Assembly: GCA_018827375.1 (NCBI GenBank)
Contig: JAHJYW010000014.1
Coordinates: 1 to 64,000, forward strand
From: Alphaproteobacteria bacterium
GTDB taxonomy: Bacteria > Pseudomonadota > Alphaproteobacteria > Caulobacterales > Hyphomonadaceae
Direction: 5' to 3'
DNA length: 64,000 nucleotides
This document shows positions 46,321 through 54,633 of the stretch, in pieces. Made by a program: the position numbers and the translations under genes. The notes beneath the pieces are model-generated. The model was not told the origin of the DNA, searched no databases, and was given only the letters and a program-made list of their open reading frames with translations. Each line of letters begins with the position of its first letter. The first letter of the stretch is position 1.

Positions 46321-48042
<1,722 letters not shown>

Positions 48043-48046
<4 letters not shown>

Positions 48047-48609
48047 CCCTGTTCCTTTCCCCGTTTGATCGAGAGAACGCCTGTACGGCTGACTTCGACA
48101 AGGCCGAGCGGGCGCATCAGGTCGATGAACTGGCTGATCTTGTCGGAAGCGCCCGTGAGTTCGAAGATGAAGCTCTCATTCGTCGTGTCGATGACGCGGG
48201 CGCGGAAGATCTCGGCGATGCGCAGCGCCTCGACGCGCACTTCACCCGTGCCAGCCACCTTGATGAGGGCAAGCTCGCGCTCGATGCCGCGCTTCGACTT
48301 GGTAATGTCGATCACTTCGCCAACTGGCACGATGCGCAGCAGCTGGGCCTCGATCTGCTCGAGGATATGCGGTGTGCCTTGGGTGACGATGGTGATACGC
48401 GAGCGATGCTGGCTGGCATCAACTTCTGCCACCGTCAGACTATCAATATTGTAGCCGCGGCCCGAAAACAGGCCGACCACGCGAGCGAGAACGCCCGGTT
48501 CGTTATCGACGAGCACGGCAAGCGTACGCCGCTCAACGGCCTCGTCGGCATGCGAGAGGAAATAGGCCGATTTGGGATTGCCGGGGGCGCCGCTGGTGCC
48601 GTCGCTCAT
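48043..48609 (-). CDS. ilvN: Acetolactate synthase small subunit
   Basis: A 188-residue regulatory subunit. An ACT domain with RRTLAVLVDNEPGVLARVVGLFSGRGYNIDSLTVAEVD is followed by the C-terminal domain with RELALIKVAG and TGASDKISQFIDLMRPLGLVEVSRTGVLSIKRG. It binds valine and gives feedback control of IlvB. It is separated from ilvB by the 48606-49343 gene, with ATGA overlaps on both sides. Confidence 0.95.
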
Positions 48610-49343
48610 TGTGTCGTCTCCGTTTGGCTGCCCGGCACGGAGGACGTGTCGAGGATGACGCCGGGCCTGCGCGTTTCAAGGCGGGCTTTCAGCGCCTTGG
48701 CGCGACTGATGGCTTCGCGCCTGTTGTCATGGGTCTGGTCATTATAGCGCTCAACGATCTTGTCGAGTCGGCGCGGGTCGAGATGGGCCTGCAGTTCTGA
48801 CACCATGAGGCGGCGGCAGTCATCGATGAACTCGGCACTGTTGTCGCCGGTCGGGCCGCCATCGCGCGTCAGGGCCTCCAGCTCGAAATAGGCCCACATA
48901 AGGGCATCGAGAATAGGCGGACGGTGGCCGCGATAGGCGCCGTCCTTGTCCACGCCCTTATTATCGGCGTCGAGATTGGGGAAGAACATGCGGCCGCGCT
49001 CGACCAGTGCAGACAGGCCGATCAGCTGGCTGGTCTTGCCGCCGATAAAGCTGCCCTCATTGGCCTGGAGGTGTCGCGTGCGGGCAAACATGGCCGCCCG
49101 GCCGAGGGCATCAATGGCGTGATTGCCCCATTCGAGGCTGGCGGCATCGATGCTCTGGCGCAGGTGTTCGGTCTGCAGGCGGCGCTGGCGGCGGGTTTCA
49201 GCACGTGAGGCGAAGGCGCTGACAAGGGCCACGAACGCAGAGCCGAGTGCGACCACCACATCAAGGTGTTCACGCAGCAGGGCGAGAATCTCGCTCGTAC
49301 TCATCGTTCGGTCCGTCCCGTAACCCAATGCCTGGCCGGTCAT
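48606..49343 (-). CDS. Uncharacterised protein with one membrane segment, between ilvB and ilvN
   Basis: A 245-residue protein. The N-terminal part has one strongly hydrophobic stretch (VVVALGSAFVALVSAFA), then a basic helix (RAETRRQRRLQTEHLRQ) and a long helical domain with EWGNHAIDALGRAAMFARTR, ISQLIGL-like GKTSQLIGLSALVERGRMFFPN and GHRPPILDALMWAYFELEALTR. No catalytic motif is seen. The start at 49343 overlaps the ilvB stop as ATGA, and its stop overlaps the ilvN start. ATG 49304 is an alternative start. I do not know the function. Confidence 0.7.
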   Translation of the reverse strand: MTGQALGYGTDRTMSTSEILALLREHLDVVVALGSAFVALVSAFASRAETRRQRRLQTEHLRQSIDAASLEWGNHAIDALGRAAMFARTRHLQANEGSFIGGKTSQLIGLSALVERGRMFFPNLDADNKGVDKDGAYRGHRPPILDALMWAYFELEALTRDGGPTGDNSAEFIDDCRRLMVSELQAHLDPRRLDKIVERYNDQTHDNRREAISRAKALKARLETRRPGVILDTSSVPGSQTETTQ

Positions 49344-51139
49344 CAGACCAGCTTCTTCCCGGCGTCGCTGACTTCGTTACCAGTTATCTCGCCCAGGATC
49401 ATCTCATTATGCGCAGAGCCCGAGGGAATCATCGGCAGGCAGTTTTCGGCCTTTTCGACGCGGCAGTCGAACAGGACCGGGCCGTCATGCGCAATCATTT
49501 CAAGGATCTTCGCGTCGAGCTCGGCTGGATCGTCGCAGCGGATGCCGTAGCCACCGAGCGCGTCAGCAAGTTTGACGAAGTCCGGGATGCTTTCCGAATA
49601 GGAGTGCGAATAGCGCTCGCCATGCAGCAATTCCTGCCACTGGCGGACCATGCCCATCCATTCATTGTTCATGATGAAAACCTTGACCGGCAGGCGGTGC
49701 TGAACGGCGGTCGAGAACTCCTGCATCACCATCTGGATCGAGGCTTCGCCGGCAATGTCGATGACCAGCGCGCCCGGATGGGCAACCTGGATGCCGACGG
49801 CGGCCGGCAGGCCATAGCCCATCGTGCCGAGGCCGCCACTGGTCATCCAGCGGTTTGGCTCCTCGAAATGGTAGAACTGGGCGGCCCACATCTGGTGCTG
49901 GCCGACTTCGGTGGAGATATAGGTCTCGCGGTCCTTGGTCAGTTCATAGAGGCGCTGGACCGCATGTTGCGGTTTGATCACCGTATCGGAGTTCTTGTAG
50001 GCAAAGCAGTCGCGGGCGCGCCATGTCGCGATCTGTTTCTTCCAGGCCGTGAGGTCTGGCCGTTTGCCCTTGCGGGCGGACAGTCCCTTCAGGATCGCTT
50101 CCAGCGTCGCAGCGCAATCACCGATGACCGGCACGTCGACACGAACGATCTTGTTGATCGAGGACGCGTCGATATCGATGTGCACCTTCTTGGAGTTGGG
50201 CGAGAAGGCATCGATCCGGCCAGTGACACGGTCGTCGAAGCGGGCGCCGACACAAAGCATCAGGTCGCAATCGTGCATGGCATTGTTGGCTTCAAAGCTG
50301 CCATGCATGCCCAGCATGCCGAGCCAGTCGGGGTGGGACGCGGGGAAGGCGCCAAGGCCCATCAGCGTGGATGTGACAGGAATACCGGTCACAGCCTGCA
50401 GTTCGCGCAGTAGTTTCGAGGCGCGCGGGCCGGAATTGATTACGCCGCCGCCTGTATAGAAGACGGGGGAGGTGGCGGACATGATGAGGTCGACAACGGC
50501 CGCGACCGCATCCGGCTGGGGCTGGGTCTGCGGTTTGTAAGTCGACTTGTGGACACCTTCCTTGCCGAGATAGGCGCCGGTCGCGAACTGGACGTCTTTC
50601 GGGATGTCGATGACAACCGGGCCAGGACGACCGGATGTGGCGATCAGGAAAGCCTCGTGCATGACGCGTGCGAGATCGTTCACGTCAGTGACGAGGTAGT
50701 TGTGCTTGGAACAGGTGCGGGTGATGCCGACCGTGTCGCATTCCTGGAAGGCGTCGGTGCCTATCAGGTGGGTCGGGACCTGGCCGCAGAGAACGACCAT
50801 CGGGATGGAGTCCATCATCGCGTCGGTGATAGGCGTGACCATGTTGGTTGCGCCAGGGCCGGATGTGACAAGGGCAACGCCGCACTTGCCGGTGGAGCGC
50901 GCATAGCCTTCGGCGGCATGCCCTGCGCCCTGTTCGTGGCGCACGAGGATGTGGCTGATGTCAGGCGCCGAGAACAAAGCGTCATAGATCGGCAGCACCG
51001 CGCCGCCGGGATAACCAAAGAGCGCATCTACGCCCTGCTCACGAAGGGCCTCGATGACAATCTCTGCACCCGTCATCAGGCGGGGCTGTGTCGGGGCCGA
51101 ACTGGCGGCACTCGTCTTGGTCTTGGTGGCTGTGGTCAT
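49343..51139 (-). CDS. ilvB: Acetolactate synthase large subunit
   Basis: A 598-residue ThDP enzyme catalysing the first common step of branched-chain synthesis. The N-domain has ALFGYPGGAVLPIYDAL and the catalytic Glu region RHEQGAGHAAEGYAR. The FAD-type domain and GLGAFPASHPDWLGMLGMHG follow, then the C-domain ThDP/Mg motif. That motif reads IDIAGEASIQMVMQEF...NNEWMGMVRQWQELLHGERY, with Glu in place of the usual Asp of GDG/GDA. ATG 51139 is preferred over the longer frame, which runs through the attenuator. Confidence 0.95.
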   Translation of the reverse strand: MTTATKTKTSAASSAPTQPRLMTGAEIVIEALREQGVDALFGYPGGAVLPIYDALFSAPDISHILVRHEQGAGHAAEGYARSTGKCGVALVTSGPGATNMVTPITDAMMDSIPMVVLCGQVPTHLIGTDAFQECDTVGITRTCSKHNYLVTDVNDLARVMHEAFLIATSGRPGPVVIDIPKDVQFATGAYLGKEGVHKSTYKPQTQPQPDAVAAVVDLIMSATSPVFYTGGGVINSGPRASKLLRELQAVTGIPVTSTLMGLGAFPASHPDWLGMLGMHGSFEANNAMHDCDLMLCVGARFDDRVTGRIDAFSPNSKKVHIDIDASSINKIVRVDVPVIGDCAATLEAILKGLSARKGKRPDLTAWKKQIATWRARDCFAYKNSDTVIKPQHAVQRLYELTKDRETYISTEVGQHQMWAAQFYHFEEPNRWMTSGGLGTMGYGLPAAVGIQVAHPGALVIDIAGEASIQMVMQEFSTAVQHRLPVKVFIMNNEWMGMVRQWQELLHGERYSHSYSESIPDFVKLADALGGYGIRCDDPAELDAKILEMIAHDGPVLFDCRVEKAENCLPMIPSGSAHNEMILGEITGNEVSDAGKKLV

Positions 51140-51180: not shown

Positions 51181-51211
51181 AAATGAAAAAGGGCCCCCTG
51201 AGGAGACCCTT
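51181..51211 (-). terminator. ilv attenuator terminator
   Basis: On the minus strand AAGGGTCTCC (51211-51202) pairs with GGGGGCCCTT (51198-51189) over ten positions, including G-U pairs, with a TCA loop. TTTCATTT follows. It lies between the leader peptide and ilvB, as expected for the terminator of a transcription attenuator. The competing antiterminator is not identified by eye. Confidence 0.75.
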
Positions 51212-51219
51212 ATATGCGC

Positions 51220-51259
51220 GCATCCGCAACCGACTGTGTGATCAGTCGACTACGGATGC
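51220..51259 (-). promoter_or_regulatory. Candidate pause hairpin of the ilv leader
   Basis: On the minus strand GCATCCG (51259-51253) pairs perfectly with CGGATGC (51226-51220). Inside it CGACT (51248-51244) pairs with AGTCG (51235-51231). The stem begins within the last codons of the leader peptide, so a translating ribosome would melt it. This is the arrangement of the 1:2 hairpin of amino-acid attenuators. Confidence 0.6.
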
Positions 51260-51288
51260 CTAATAACGAGTACTAGTGATGTGCGCAC
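51250..51288 (-). CDS. ilv operon leader peptide
   Basis: A 12-residue ORF, MRTSLVLVIRHP, begins with GTG at 51288 and stops at TAG 51252-51250. Five consecutive codons encode Leu-Val-Leu-Val-Ile, all products of the operon it precedes. A strong Shine-Dalgarno GGAGGA lies at 51303-51298, nine bases before the GTG. Stalling on these codons during branched-chain amino-acid starvation would prevent the terminator at 51211-51181. This is a control peptide, not a functional protein. Confidence 0.8.
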   Translation of the reverse strand: MRTSLVLVIRHP

Positions 51289-51313
51289 GGTTGCGTTTCC
51301 TCCAACGTCGAGG

Positions 51314-52264
51314 TCAGGAATAATCTGCCTCTTTGACGCTGTCAATCTCCCTATAAAGGGCATGAATGACCCGAAGGCGGTTTTCTGGCTCTGGCGAGGG
51401 GATGCGCGGCCAGAACGGGAATTGCCTGCCGATCCATGTAAATTGCCGCTTTGCATAGCGCCGCGTATCCCGTTTGGCATTCTCGGCAGCCAGTTCGGCG
51501 CTGATCTCGCCGCGCGCAAAGGCCGTGAGCCAGGGCATGCCGTGGGCTTTCATGGCGGGAAGCTCAGGGTCGAGGTTGCGCGCCATCAGGGCGCGGGCCT
51601 CGTCCATGGCGCCCTGCATGAGCATGCCCTCGAAGCGCCGATCAATCTTCTGGTAGAGGCGTGCCCGGGGCGGGGTGAGGGCAAAACCGATCCATTCACC
51701 CTCGTTCAGGACAGGCGGCTGGCGCTCGTCATGGAAGTGGCCAAGGGGGCGCCCGGTAGCCAGCCAGACTTCATAGGCGCGTGCAAGGCGCTGGCGGTCG
51801 CCTGTGCCGAGGCGTTCGGCAGTTTCGGGATCGACGAGCTCCAGCCTGTCGCGCAGGCCCTCAGCGCCCTCGGCATCTGCGATGGCACGCACTTCGGCGC
51901 GGATGTCTTCAGGCACTGGCGGGATGCTGGAGAGGCCCTGTGTAAGGGCCAGCAGGTAAAGCCCGGTGCCGCCCACAAGGATGGCGCGCTTGCCTTTCAG
52001 CTCGACACGTTTGATCTCGCGCCGGGCTTCTTCCAGCCAGTCACCCGTGGAATAGCGCATTGCCGCATCGACATGACCGAAGAGATGGTGTTCGACGCCA
52101 TTCATCTCCTCTTCGTCGGGGCGGGCGCTGATGACACGCAGGTCCCTGTAAACCTGCATGGAATCAGCATTGATGACTTCACCGCCCAAGCGCCGGGCGA
52201 CGGCGATGGCGAGGGCGGTCTTGCCGCTGGCGGTGGGGCCGTGAATGAGGATTGCCGGATGCAT
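51314..52264 (-). CDS. miaA: tRNA dimethylallyltransferase
   Basis: A 316-residue MiaA that transfers a dimethylallyl group to A37 of tRNAs reading UNN codons. The P-loop is HGPTASGKTALAIAVAR. Further motifs are NADSMQVYRDLRV, ISARPDEEEMNGVEHHLFG, ILVGGTGLYLLAL and RQFTWIGRQ at the C-terminus. The start ATG 52264 is divergent from serB with 56 bp between. The ilv leader transcript starts at its 3' end. Confidence 0.95.
   Translation of the reverse strand: MHPAILIHGPTASGKTALAIAVARRLGGEVINADSMQVYRDLRVISARPDEEEMNGVEHHLFGHVDAAMRYSTGDWLEEARREIKRVELKGKRAILVGGTGLYLLALTQGLSSIPPVPEDIRAEVRAIADAEGAEGLRDRLELVDPETAERLGTGDRQRLARAYEVWLATGRPLGHFHDERQPPVLNEGEWIGFALTPPRARLYQKIDRRFEGMLMQGAMDEARALMARNLDPELPAMKAHGMPWLTAFARGEISAELAAENAKRDTRRYAKRQFTWIGRQFPFWPRIPSPEPENRLRVIHALYREIDSVKEADYS
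51317..51345 (-). promoter_or_regulatory. Candidate ilv promoter within the 3' end of miaA
   Basis: On the minus strand TTGACA (51345-51340) is a perfect -35 box. After a 17-bp spacer comes TATTCC (51322-51317), a weak -10. Transcription would begin near 51310, just ahead of the leader peptide start at 51288. The elements overlap the last miaA codons. Confidence 0.5.
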
Positions 52265-53454: not shown

Positions 53455-54633
53455 ATGAAAAATCCTGACTACGATTCGCTGATCTCGCCATCCCGGCGCA
53501 ATCTGATGAAATTTGCCGGTGTCGGTGCACTTGGTGCAGCGACAGCGAGCCTTGTCGCCTGTTCCGAAAGCGCCAGCGCGGCCGGCACGACGGCTGCGGC
53601 GACGACCCCGGCCATCGACCCGAACGCGATTGCGATCATGTCGGCAAACGAAAACCCGTATGGCCCATCGCCGATGGCAATCGAAGCCATGTCGAAAGAG
53701 CTGAACAACCTGAACCGTTATGCCTATCCGCTGACGCAGGCCTTCGCCGCGAAAATCGCTGAACGCGAAGGTGTAGCCGTCGAGCAGGTTCTGGTGACCA
53801 ATGGTTCGTCGCCTATCCTCGCGGCCTTCTCTGATTATGTGAACGTCAAGGGCGGTGAAATCGTCACGTCAGCAATCACGTATGAAGGCGTTCCGCGCGT
53901 CGCCGAGCAGGCTGGCACAAAAGTGGTTTACATGCCGCTGACACAGGACCTTGGCTATGATCTCGAAGCGATCTCTGCTGCCATCGGTCCGAACACGGGC
54001 GCTGTCTATATCTGTAATCCGAACAACCCGACGGGCCGCACGATCGAGCCAGCCAAGCTGAAAGCCTTTATCGAGGACGCCTCCAGCAAGGTGCCGGTCT
54101 TCATCGACGAAGCCTACATGGACATGGCTGACGACTTTCCAGCAGGCGTGATGACCGAGTTTGTCGCCGCCGGTAAGCCAGTGATCGTGGCACGCACATT
54201 CTCCAAGATCTATGCAATGGCCGGCCAGCGTCTCGGCTATGGCATCATGCCTGCCGACATGGCGATGGCGATGCGCAAGACGGGCCGTCTGTCATCGGTC
54301 AACCATCTCGGCCTCGTGGCCGGCATGGCCAGCCTCGACGACACCGTTTACTTCGATGACATGCGCCTGAAGATGATCAAGGGCCGCGAGAAGCTGATCG
54401 CCATGGCGAACGATCTCGGTCGTCCGTATGCGCCAAATCCGCAGGGCAACTTCATCTACATGGACCTCGGCATGAACAACCAGGAATTCGCCGACAAGAT
54501 GCTCGAAAAGGGCGTCAAAGTGGTGGGTTCGCGCTGGTCCGAGAAGCCGGAATGGACGCGCATCTGCGTTGGCCTCGATCACGAGATCGAAAAGTGCCAT
54601 GCCGCTGCCAAGCAGATCCTCACGGCGATCTGA
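53455..54633 (+). CDS. Tat-exported class I/II aminotransferase (HisC-like)
   Basis: A 392-residue PLP enzyme. The twin-Arg motif SRRNLMKFAG lies at residues ~13-22 with a following hydrophobic region and LVAC, so it may be a Tat-exported lipoprotein. The catalytic region has YICNPNNPTGR, VFIDEAYMDM and the PLP-Lys segment RTFSKIYAMAGQRLGYGI. This is the class I/II (histidinol-phosphate-type) fold. A PLP-dependent aminotransferase outside the cytoplasm is unusual. The native substrate and PLP loading route are unknown. It stands alone, with 210 bp upstream. Confidence 0.85.
   Translation: MKNPDYDSLISPSRRNLMKFAGVGALGAATASLVACSESASAAGTTAAATTPAIDPNAIAIMSANENPYGPSPMAIEAMSKELNNLNRYAYPLTQAFAAKIAEREGVAVEQVLVTNGSSPILAAFSDYVNVKGGEIVTSAITYEGVPRVAEQAGTKVVYMPLTQDLGYDLEAISAAIGPNTGAVYICNPNNPTGRTIEPAKLKAFIEDASSKVPVFIDEAYMDMADDFPAGVMTEFVAAGKPVIVARTFSKIYAMAGQRLGYGIMPADMAMAMRKTGRLSSVNHLGLVAGMASLDDTVYFDDMRLKMIKGREKLIAMANDLGRPYAPNPQGNFIYMDLGMNNQEFADKMLEKGVKVVGSRWSEKPEWTRICVGLDHEIEKCHAAAKQILTAI

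Follow-up and report, generated by a model that had tools for sequence, protein, structure and literature searches.

The ilvB locus and a predicted promoter within miaA

The 64,000-nucleotide stretch of DNA analysed here (the window) carries on its minus strand ilvB (49343-51139, Pfam TPP_enzyme_N/M/C; ATG at 51139), which encodes the acetolactate synthase large subunit, ilvN/ilvH (48043-48609, Pfam ALS_ss_C and ACT_AHAS_ss), which encodes the small subunit, and ilvC (46321-47439, Pfam KARI_N and KARI_C), which encodes ketol-acid reductoisomerase and probably has its true start inside that ORF. After a leader region, the three genes follow on one strand in the order ilvB, small-subunit gene, ilvC, with two further ORFs interspersed. 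The latter (48606-49343, 245 amino acids, and 47393-48046, 217 amino acids; both on the minus strand) touch or overlap ilvB, the small-subunit gene and ilvC, and the Pfam scan gave no match to either. Among the matches listed, the best named relative of the IlvB protein belongs to Henriciella algicola (81%). Elsewhere in the window, an ORF on the plus strand (53455-54633) resembles by eye a histidinol-phosphate aminotransferase and appears by eye to carry an N-terminal export signal of the twin-arginine or lipoprotein type, an unusual pairing with an aminotransferase.

Relatives of this locus were collected by searching for IlvB in 105 genomes of the window's family, of which 104 had a match. 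Four were left out as having only distant matches (G017, G031, G090, G095) and three because ilvB was cut at its start (G058, G072, G099); of the 97 upstream regions that were read, one at a contig end with no leader (G064) was also left out, leaving 96 loci for analysis. The window's own genus contributed 40 of its 42 genomes. A wider set was drawn from 80 named IlvB loci, 76 of them with enough upstream sequence, of which 34 qualify (the named set) by having an ORF with at least four Leu, Val or Ile codons before a terminator, a Shine-Dalgarno motif not being required; one of the 34 (L001) is a family member, seemingly the same genome as G045.

The gene upstream of the leader is miaA (51314-52264, minus strand; Pfam IPPT, E 1.3e-70), which encodes tRNA dimethylallyltransferase and lies in this position, on the same strand, in 89 of the 97 family loci; in the named set, by contrast, the sequence ahead of 30 of the 34 leaders gave no miaA match. 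The idea that miaA drives regulation of the leader through tRNA modification was dropped, the regulatory codons having no initial U, and is further weakened by those 30 leaders.

Within the end of miaA, the -35 hexamer TTGACA (51340-51345) and the -10-like TATTCC (51317-51322; TATGCC in some relatives), which an earlier note on this sequence had reported on the minus strand with a 17-bp spacer between them, are found by direct reading at 51345-51340 and 51322-51317. The -35 hexamer is invariant, synonymous sites included, in all 40 genomes of the genus in which the leader was read, and the -10-like hexamer coincides with the last two sense codons of miaA, where the surrounding third positions are also invariant. 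The third base is identical in 40/40 genomes both in the codons GAG ATT GAC, at the -35 element, and in GAT TAT TCC/GCC, at the -10 element, whereas of 30 conserved degenerate codons among the 40 miaA codons that precede the promoter only four have a single third base; because of this difference, the promoter seems to be under selection within the coding end of miaA. A strict pattern scan found no promoter at the leader, because TATTCC lacks the final T that the -10 rule demands. Judged by sequence and conservation, a predicted promoter thus stands upstream of a short leader ORF with its own Shine-Dalgarno motif.

The leader ORF, its hairpins and the terminator

The Shine-Dalgarno motif GGAGGA (51298-51303, minus strand) lies nine bases before a GTG that opens a leader ORF of 12 codons (51250-51288, minus strand), encoding MRTSLVLVIRHP and ending in TAG; both were described in the earlier note and are borne out by direct reading, as is the series of five tandem codons for Leu, Val, Leu, Val and Ile (CTA GTA CTC GTT ATT, codons 5-9, 51262-51276). 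The Shine-Dalgarno region GAGGAAACG (51302-51294) is invariant in the genus. In dinucleotide shuffles of 51313-51140, an ORF preceded by a Shine-Dalgarno motif and holding five of five consecutive Leu, Val or Ile codons arose in 1 of 5000.

The leaders of the genus are enriched in codons that are rare in their own ilvB genes. GTA accounts for 69 of 87 Val codons in the leaders, against 43 of 1287 in 29 ilvB genes, and ATT for 21 of 28 Ile codons, against 193 of 1153; CTG is used for 1 of 50 Leu codons in the leaders, compared with 725 of 1225 in ilvB (counts cover 29 of 30 ilvB genes, that of L086 not having been found by motif and being left out). Marked codon bias has been described in attenuation leaders, and theory links it to tRNA charging and not to rarity alone (PMC1183508).

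Counterparts of the leader ORF were identified in all 96 analysed family loci. A terminator ahead of ilvB was recognized in 86 of 97 loci by a strict finder and in 96 of 97 by a looser one with a relaxed U-run rule, and an ORF with at least three Leu, Val or Ile residues in six codons precedes it in 96/96; the choice of ORF maximises the content of these residues, so that this figure alone is no test, and a shuffled control was supplied, in which a Shine-Dalgarno motif with at least four such residues occurs in 40 of 1920 sequences, against 86 of the 96 real loci. A Shine-Dalgarno motif is present in 93 of the 96 leaders and absent from three, and seven leaders have only three Leu, Val or Ile residues. 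For folding of full leaders, ORF starts chosen as MSEV were reset manually to VRMSEV, and the start in G036 was likewise adjusted. The family peptides vary around a retained run (VLVIRHP, VVILKCP, VVKLRRP, VVVLISP, LVVVRKRL, LVLVIGSPP); some members of the genus have only three such residues (LRKMTVVKLRRP), and the leader assigned to G086 (VSIAQTAIGVVGGRPPAP) is doubtful.

Two hairpins follow from the region of the regulatory codons. The main stem, of 17 bp, begins at the third base of codon 10 and takes in the stop codon; its 5' arm (segment 1, 51243-51259, minus strand) contains the last leader codons as well as the stop, and its 3' arm (segment 2) lies at 51220-51236. The second is an intrinsic terminator (51186-51211, minus strand) with a 10-bp stem at 51211-51189 and a run of five T at 51190-51186, between the leader ORF and ilvB, the first biosynthetic gene. 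Folding and a pattern scan thereby recover the two structures that the earlier note had seen by eye, a stem starting at the last codons of the leader and a GC-rich stem followed by T residues before the ATG of ilvB. The RNA from 51310 to 51140 is predicted to be more stable than all of 200 dinucleotide shuffles (z -4.35); the terminator pattern scan returned three sites in 701 bases, where 0.7 would be expected.

Covariation of the main stem was assessed in an alignment of 39 of the 40 genus leaders, one identical row being left out. In this alignment pairing holds in 93.3% of cells (87.8 on average in shuffles), 74 cells are changed on both sides (shuffled mean 27.6) and the covariation score is 0.244 (0.156 shuffled), values reached by 0 of 500 shuffles, with the reservation that kinship among sequences can inflate such scores. 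All measures drop when the partner strand is slid. The number of pairs with a double change (8, against 6.9 shuffled) and the number of further pair types (28, against 26.8) are not above shuffles. The three stops UAG, UGA and UAA are all able to pair with a conserved UUG. The comparison of related leaders that had been proposed as a check shows the run and its codons kept, the stem covarying and the terminator retained.

A third helix, P0, joins GTGCGC (51283-51288, minus strand), which includes the start codon, with GCGCAT (51214-51219), directly before the terminator. P0 has at least six pairs in 40 of 40 leaders of the genus and in 58 of 96 in the family, against 11% in shifted controls; fewer than five pairs were found in all 14 loci of genera g2, g4, g5, g7 and g8, and in g10 six pairs occur in only 1 of 12 loci. 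Nine sequences have U-G in place of G-C in P0 at the start codon, a double change that probably arose once. As folded, P0 would tie up the start codon in the complete RNA, and it may stop repeated translation of a finished leader.

These features together indicate, with a probability that we put at about 0.87, that the region is a ribosome-mediated transcription attenuator before ilvB and, by gene order, also before the small-subunit gene and ilvC. An ample supply of charged Leu, Val and Ile tRNAs would let the ribosome run through the leader and leave; with the ribosome gone, the stem and terminator would form and transcription would end before ilvB; when one of these charged tRNAs is short, the ribosome would stall on the regulatory codons and RNA polymerase would read through. 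An amino-acid attenuator of the ilv operon is what the earlier note had proposed, and the proposal is strongly supported, because the ORF, codons, stem, terminator and promoter are all conserved in relatives. The element is a well-supported candidate regulator of branched-chain amino acid synthesis across a family; Rfam release 15 has no match in the window at the gathering score, and its best score near the leader is far below the cut-off.

How a stalled ribosome may prevent termination

Whether a stalled ribosome exchanges one RNA helix for another was examined by folding the RNA as it exists just before the terminator 3' arm is made, for each position of the ribosome. An equilibrium fold of the whole leader with the ribosome footprint masked had the terminator formed at every position, and is uninformative because trpL, leuL and thrL of Escherichia coli also show the terminator throughout. 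In the fold of the shorter RNA, the same three leaders behave as controls: the terminator 5' arm of trpL is paired 0.83 with the ribosome on the Trp codons and 0.03 with the ribosome on the stop codon, that of leuL 0.85 on the Leu codons and 0.01 at the stop, and that of thrL 0.62 over most of the run and 0.04 at the stop. The E. coli ilvL and ivbL leaders, which are attenuators of the same kind as trpL, leuL and thrL, were left out of the controls, the terminator finder having seen none there.

Across the 96 family loci, the mean pairing of the terminator 5' arm is 0.36 with the ribosome on codon 4, 0.41 on the regulatory codons, 0.55 on the last of them and 0.51 on the stop codon. An excess of more than 0.3 over the stop value occurs at the best regulatory codon in only 2 of 96 loci (G098 and G101), in none when averaged over the run and in two at the last codon; by the same measures, the named set yields 12, 1 (L011) and 3 of 34. 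In 91 distinct leaders of the 96, neither terminator arm is more complementary to the stretch between stop codon and terminator than dinucleotide shuffles would give (z +0.35 for the 5' arm, +0.13 for the 3' arm), in a test that is weaker than the fold, scoring -1.3 for trpL, -0.8 for thrL (-5.6 with the ORF included) and +0.3 for leuL (-1.1 with the ORF), and tertiary, kinetic or protein-assisted switches would escape both tests. Many short helices can be enumerated for the terminator 5' arm, but they share no common partner; a four-pair match at the Pro codon (ACCC or GCCC with GGGU or GGGC) recurs, but is short and shares bases with the stem.

The textbook four-segment design, in which the stalled ribosome masks segment 1 and segment 2 pairs with the terminator 5' arm as a 2:3 antiterminator, is possible, if doubtful. 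The leader has the 1:2 stem overlapping its ORF that this design calls for, and in the window segment 2 can form a weak, interrupted pairing with GGGUCUCC when the ribosome is on Val8 or Ile9: the paired fraction is 0.42-0.46 before, 0.67-0.72 at these two codons, but it stays at 0.63 with the ribosome on the stop codon, whereas in the E. coli controls 0.62-0.85 gives way to 0.01-0.04. Consensus folds computed for a ribosome at the last regulatory codon contain short helices of 2:3 type in the groups g3b, g7, g10 and g9+g6; the pairing differs between genomes, however, and is absent from the consensus folds of g1 (the window's genus) and g3a, and the shuffle test of complementarity likewise speaks against it. 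A strong ribosome-dependent antiterminator helix that excludes the terminator, as predicted by the same procedure for trpL, leuL and thrL, is not predicted here. The earlier note had supposed that the stalled ribosome shifts the pairing, and had suggested folding as a means of finding a 2:3 antiterminator; the folds offer no strong competitor of the terminator in the window, where the weak 2:3-like helix is all that appears, and single out two loci among the 96. In the named set, L011 has a strong ribosome-dependent antiterminator at its regulatory codons (regulatory mean 0.73, stop 0.37) and L017 has one only near a single codon. Designs with and without an antiterminator may both exist in the class, as far as the folding models can tell.

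The region is accordingly classed as a leader-peptide attenuator in the broad sense, and the textbook four-segment label is withheld: no strong antiterminator of that type is encoded, at least where it was looked for. Modelling found no strong encoded helix by which a stalled ribosome could block the terminator, and with the main stem so near the terminator, the junction between the two is a likely site of interference. If the absence of an antiterminator holds, this would be a simpler form of attenuation, and directly testable.

One arrangement at that junction, which we regard as doubtful, is that the intact upper part of the stem brings the stalled ribosome beside the terminator and blocks its folding without any antiterminator helix. 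The absence of a strong antiterminator is consistent with it, and so is the spacing. In all 96 family loci, counting from the first base of the last regulatory codon, the stem base is reached after 3-8 nt, and 1-13 nt (median 9) separate the end of the stem from the terminator's G core, a gap that P0, where formed, mostly fills; the corresponding gap measures 0-5 nt in 26 of the 34 leaders of the named set. On the other side, the argument comes from geometry alone, a ribosome that sits on the last codons would melt the lower part of the stem, and the spacing in the genus also fits a plain pause hairpin. It is rather unlikely that attenuation in the family ilvB leaders, and perhaps in those of other Alphaproteobacteria, works with two hairpins and no antiterminator helix, the ribosome itself preventing terminator folding; were this so, read-through would involve no new helix but only a changed ribosome position.

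A different use of the same junction would have the intact stem lower termination, with a ribosome at the stop codon opening the stem and allowing the terminator to work, so that a leader that is not translated would be read through. This is unlikely. The stop codon sits past the stem base by a median distance of 7 nt (g7 and g10: 16-18 nt), from which at least the lower stem would be opened, and many Rhodobacterales leaders have the stem end at the terminator start (gap 0); in the family, however, the two structures can coexist, the terminator averaging 0.91 paired when the full leader is folded and falling below 0.5 in only 3 of 96 loci.

A switch made by the leader Shine-Dalgarno motif pairing with the CU-rich terminator 5' arm (GGAGG with UCUCC) is very unlikely. 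Matches of this kind (UUGGAGG with UCUCCGA, GGAGG with UCUCC, or GAGGAA with UUCCUC) recur in the window's genus, where complementarity of the 5' arm to the 5'UTR has a z of -1.0 in 39 leaders, and free RNA that keeps 25 bases of 5'UTR has a mean arm pairing of 0.64 in the family; but g3, g4, g5, g7 and g9 give a z close to zero or positive, the signal is clear only in part of the family, and a Shine-Dalgarno motif is expected in any case. That the hairpin is a plain miaA terminator accompanied by a chance ORF, with ilvB unregulated, is highly improbable, for although miaA does precede most family leaders, the run, codon bias, start-codon helix and promoter are all conserved and a miaA match is lacking ahead of most leaders in the named set.

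Related leaders in other bacteria

Searched with a covariance model of the element, the window's source genome gives the ilvB copy at E 1.6e-32, the next best match having E 0.03; this second match (C44) was dropped, the finder seeing no terminator there and the adjoining ORF being Dps-like by eye. At E 0.01, this model (R1) picks up 68 of the order's 249 genomes and misses at least seven of the family. Of 12 stretches from other genomes of the order, 11 contain ilvB; runs of five Leu, Val or Ile residues in six are present in L195-L197 and L201, three such residues in L190-L193 and L202, and in L194 the finder saw no leader. Four of five other genomes of the window's order have a related leader (VRNTMIVLMERPFTA or one residue different) and the same start-codon helix before ilvB. 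No paper on the element was recognized by title or the start of the abstract among the matches listed for Hyphomonas, Hyphomonadaceae, Rhodobacter, Roseobacter and alphaproteobacteria.

The ilvBN operon of Caulobacter crescentus is described as regulated by attenuation, with Ile and Val codons in tandem ahead of a rho-independent terminator (PMC4117421, citing Tarleton, Malakooti and Ely 1994); by that description, its leader would share with the present one the operon, tandem regulatory codons and terminator. In Corynebacterium, the ilvB-II motif and the C. glutamicum ilvBNC leader likewise consist of a short uORF rich in branched-chain amino acids over a first stem, a terminator stem and ilvB, with AUG or GUG starts, and an antiterminator sharing bases with the terminator has been proposed for them (PMC10272879, PMC11857589). 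By contrast, the leaders described here, from a different phylum, have no excess complementarity to either terminator arm.

The E. coli leaders trpL, leuL and thrL share with the present one a leader peptide, regulatory codons and a terminator before the first gene, but they have a strong ribosome-dependent antiterminator in the fold test, whereas here the leader is short, its stop codon is contained in the first stem's 5' arm, and little sequence separates that stem from the terminator.

Similar leaders are present before ilvB elsewhere in the Alphaproteobacteria, as judged from the sequences of the named set; no terminator was found in the Pelagibacter-like named loci that have upstream sequence. 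The Rhodobacterales-type leaders that end in RMGR (L021, L045, L060 and others) have, like the family leaders, a Leu, Val and Ile run and a stem over the last codons and stop, but the stem base is usually 13 nt after the last regulatory codon and the terminator follows without a gap. In L021, L023, L045, L060 and similar leaders ending in RMGR, the end of the stem is the start of the terminator, a second and very uniform form of attenuator.
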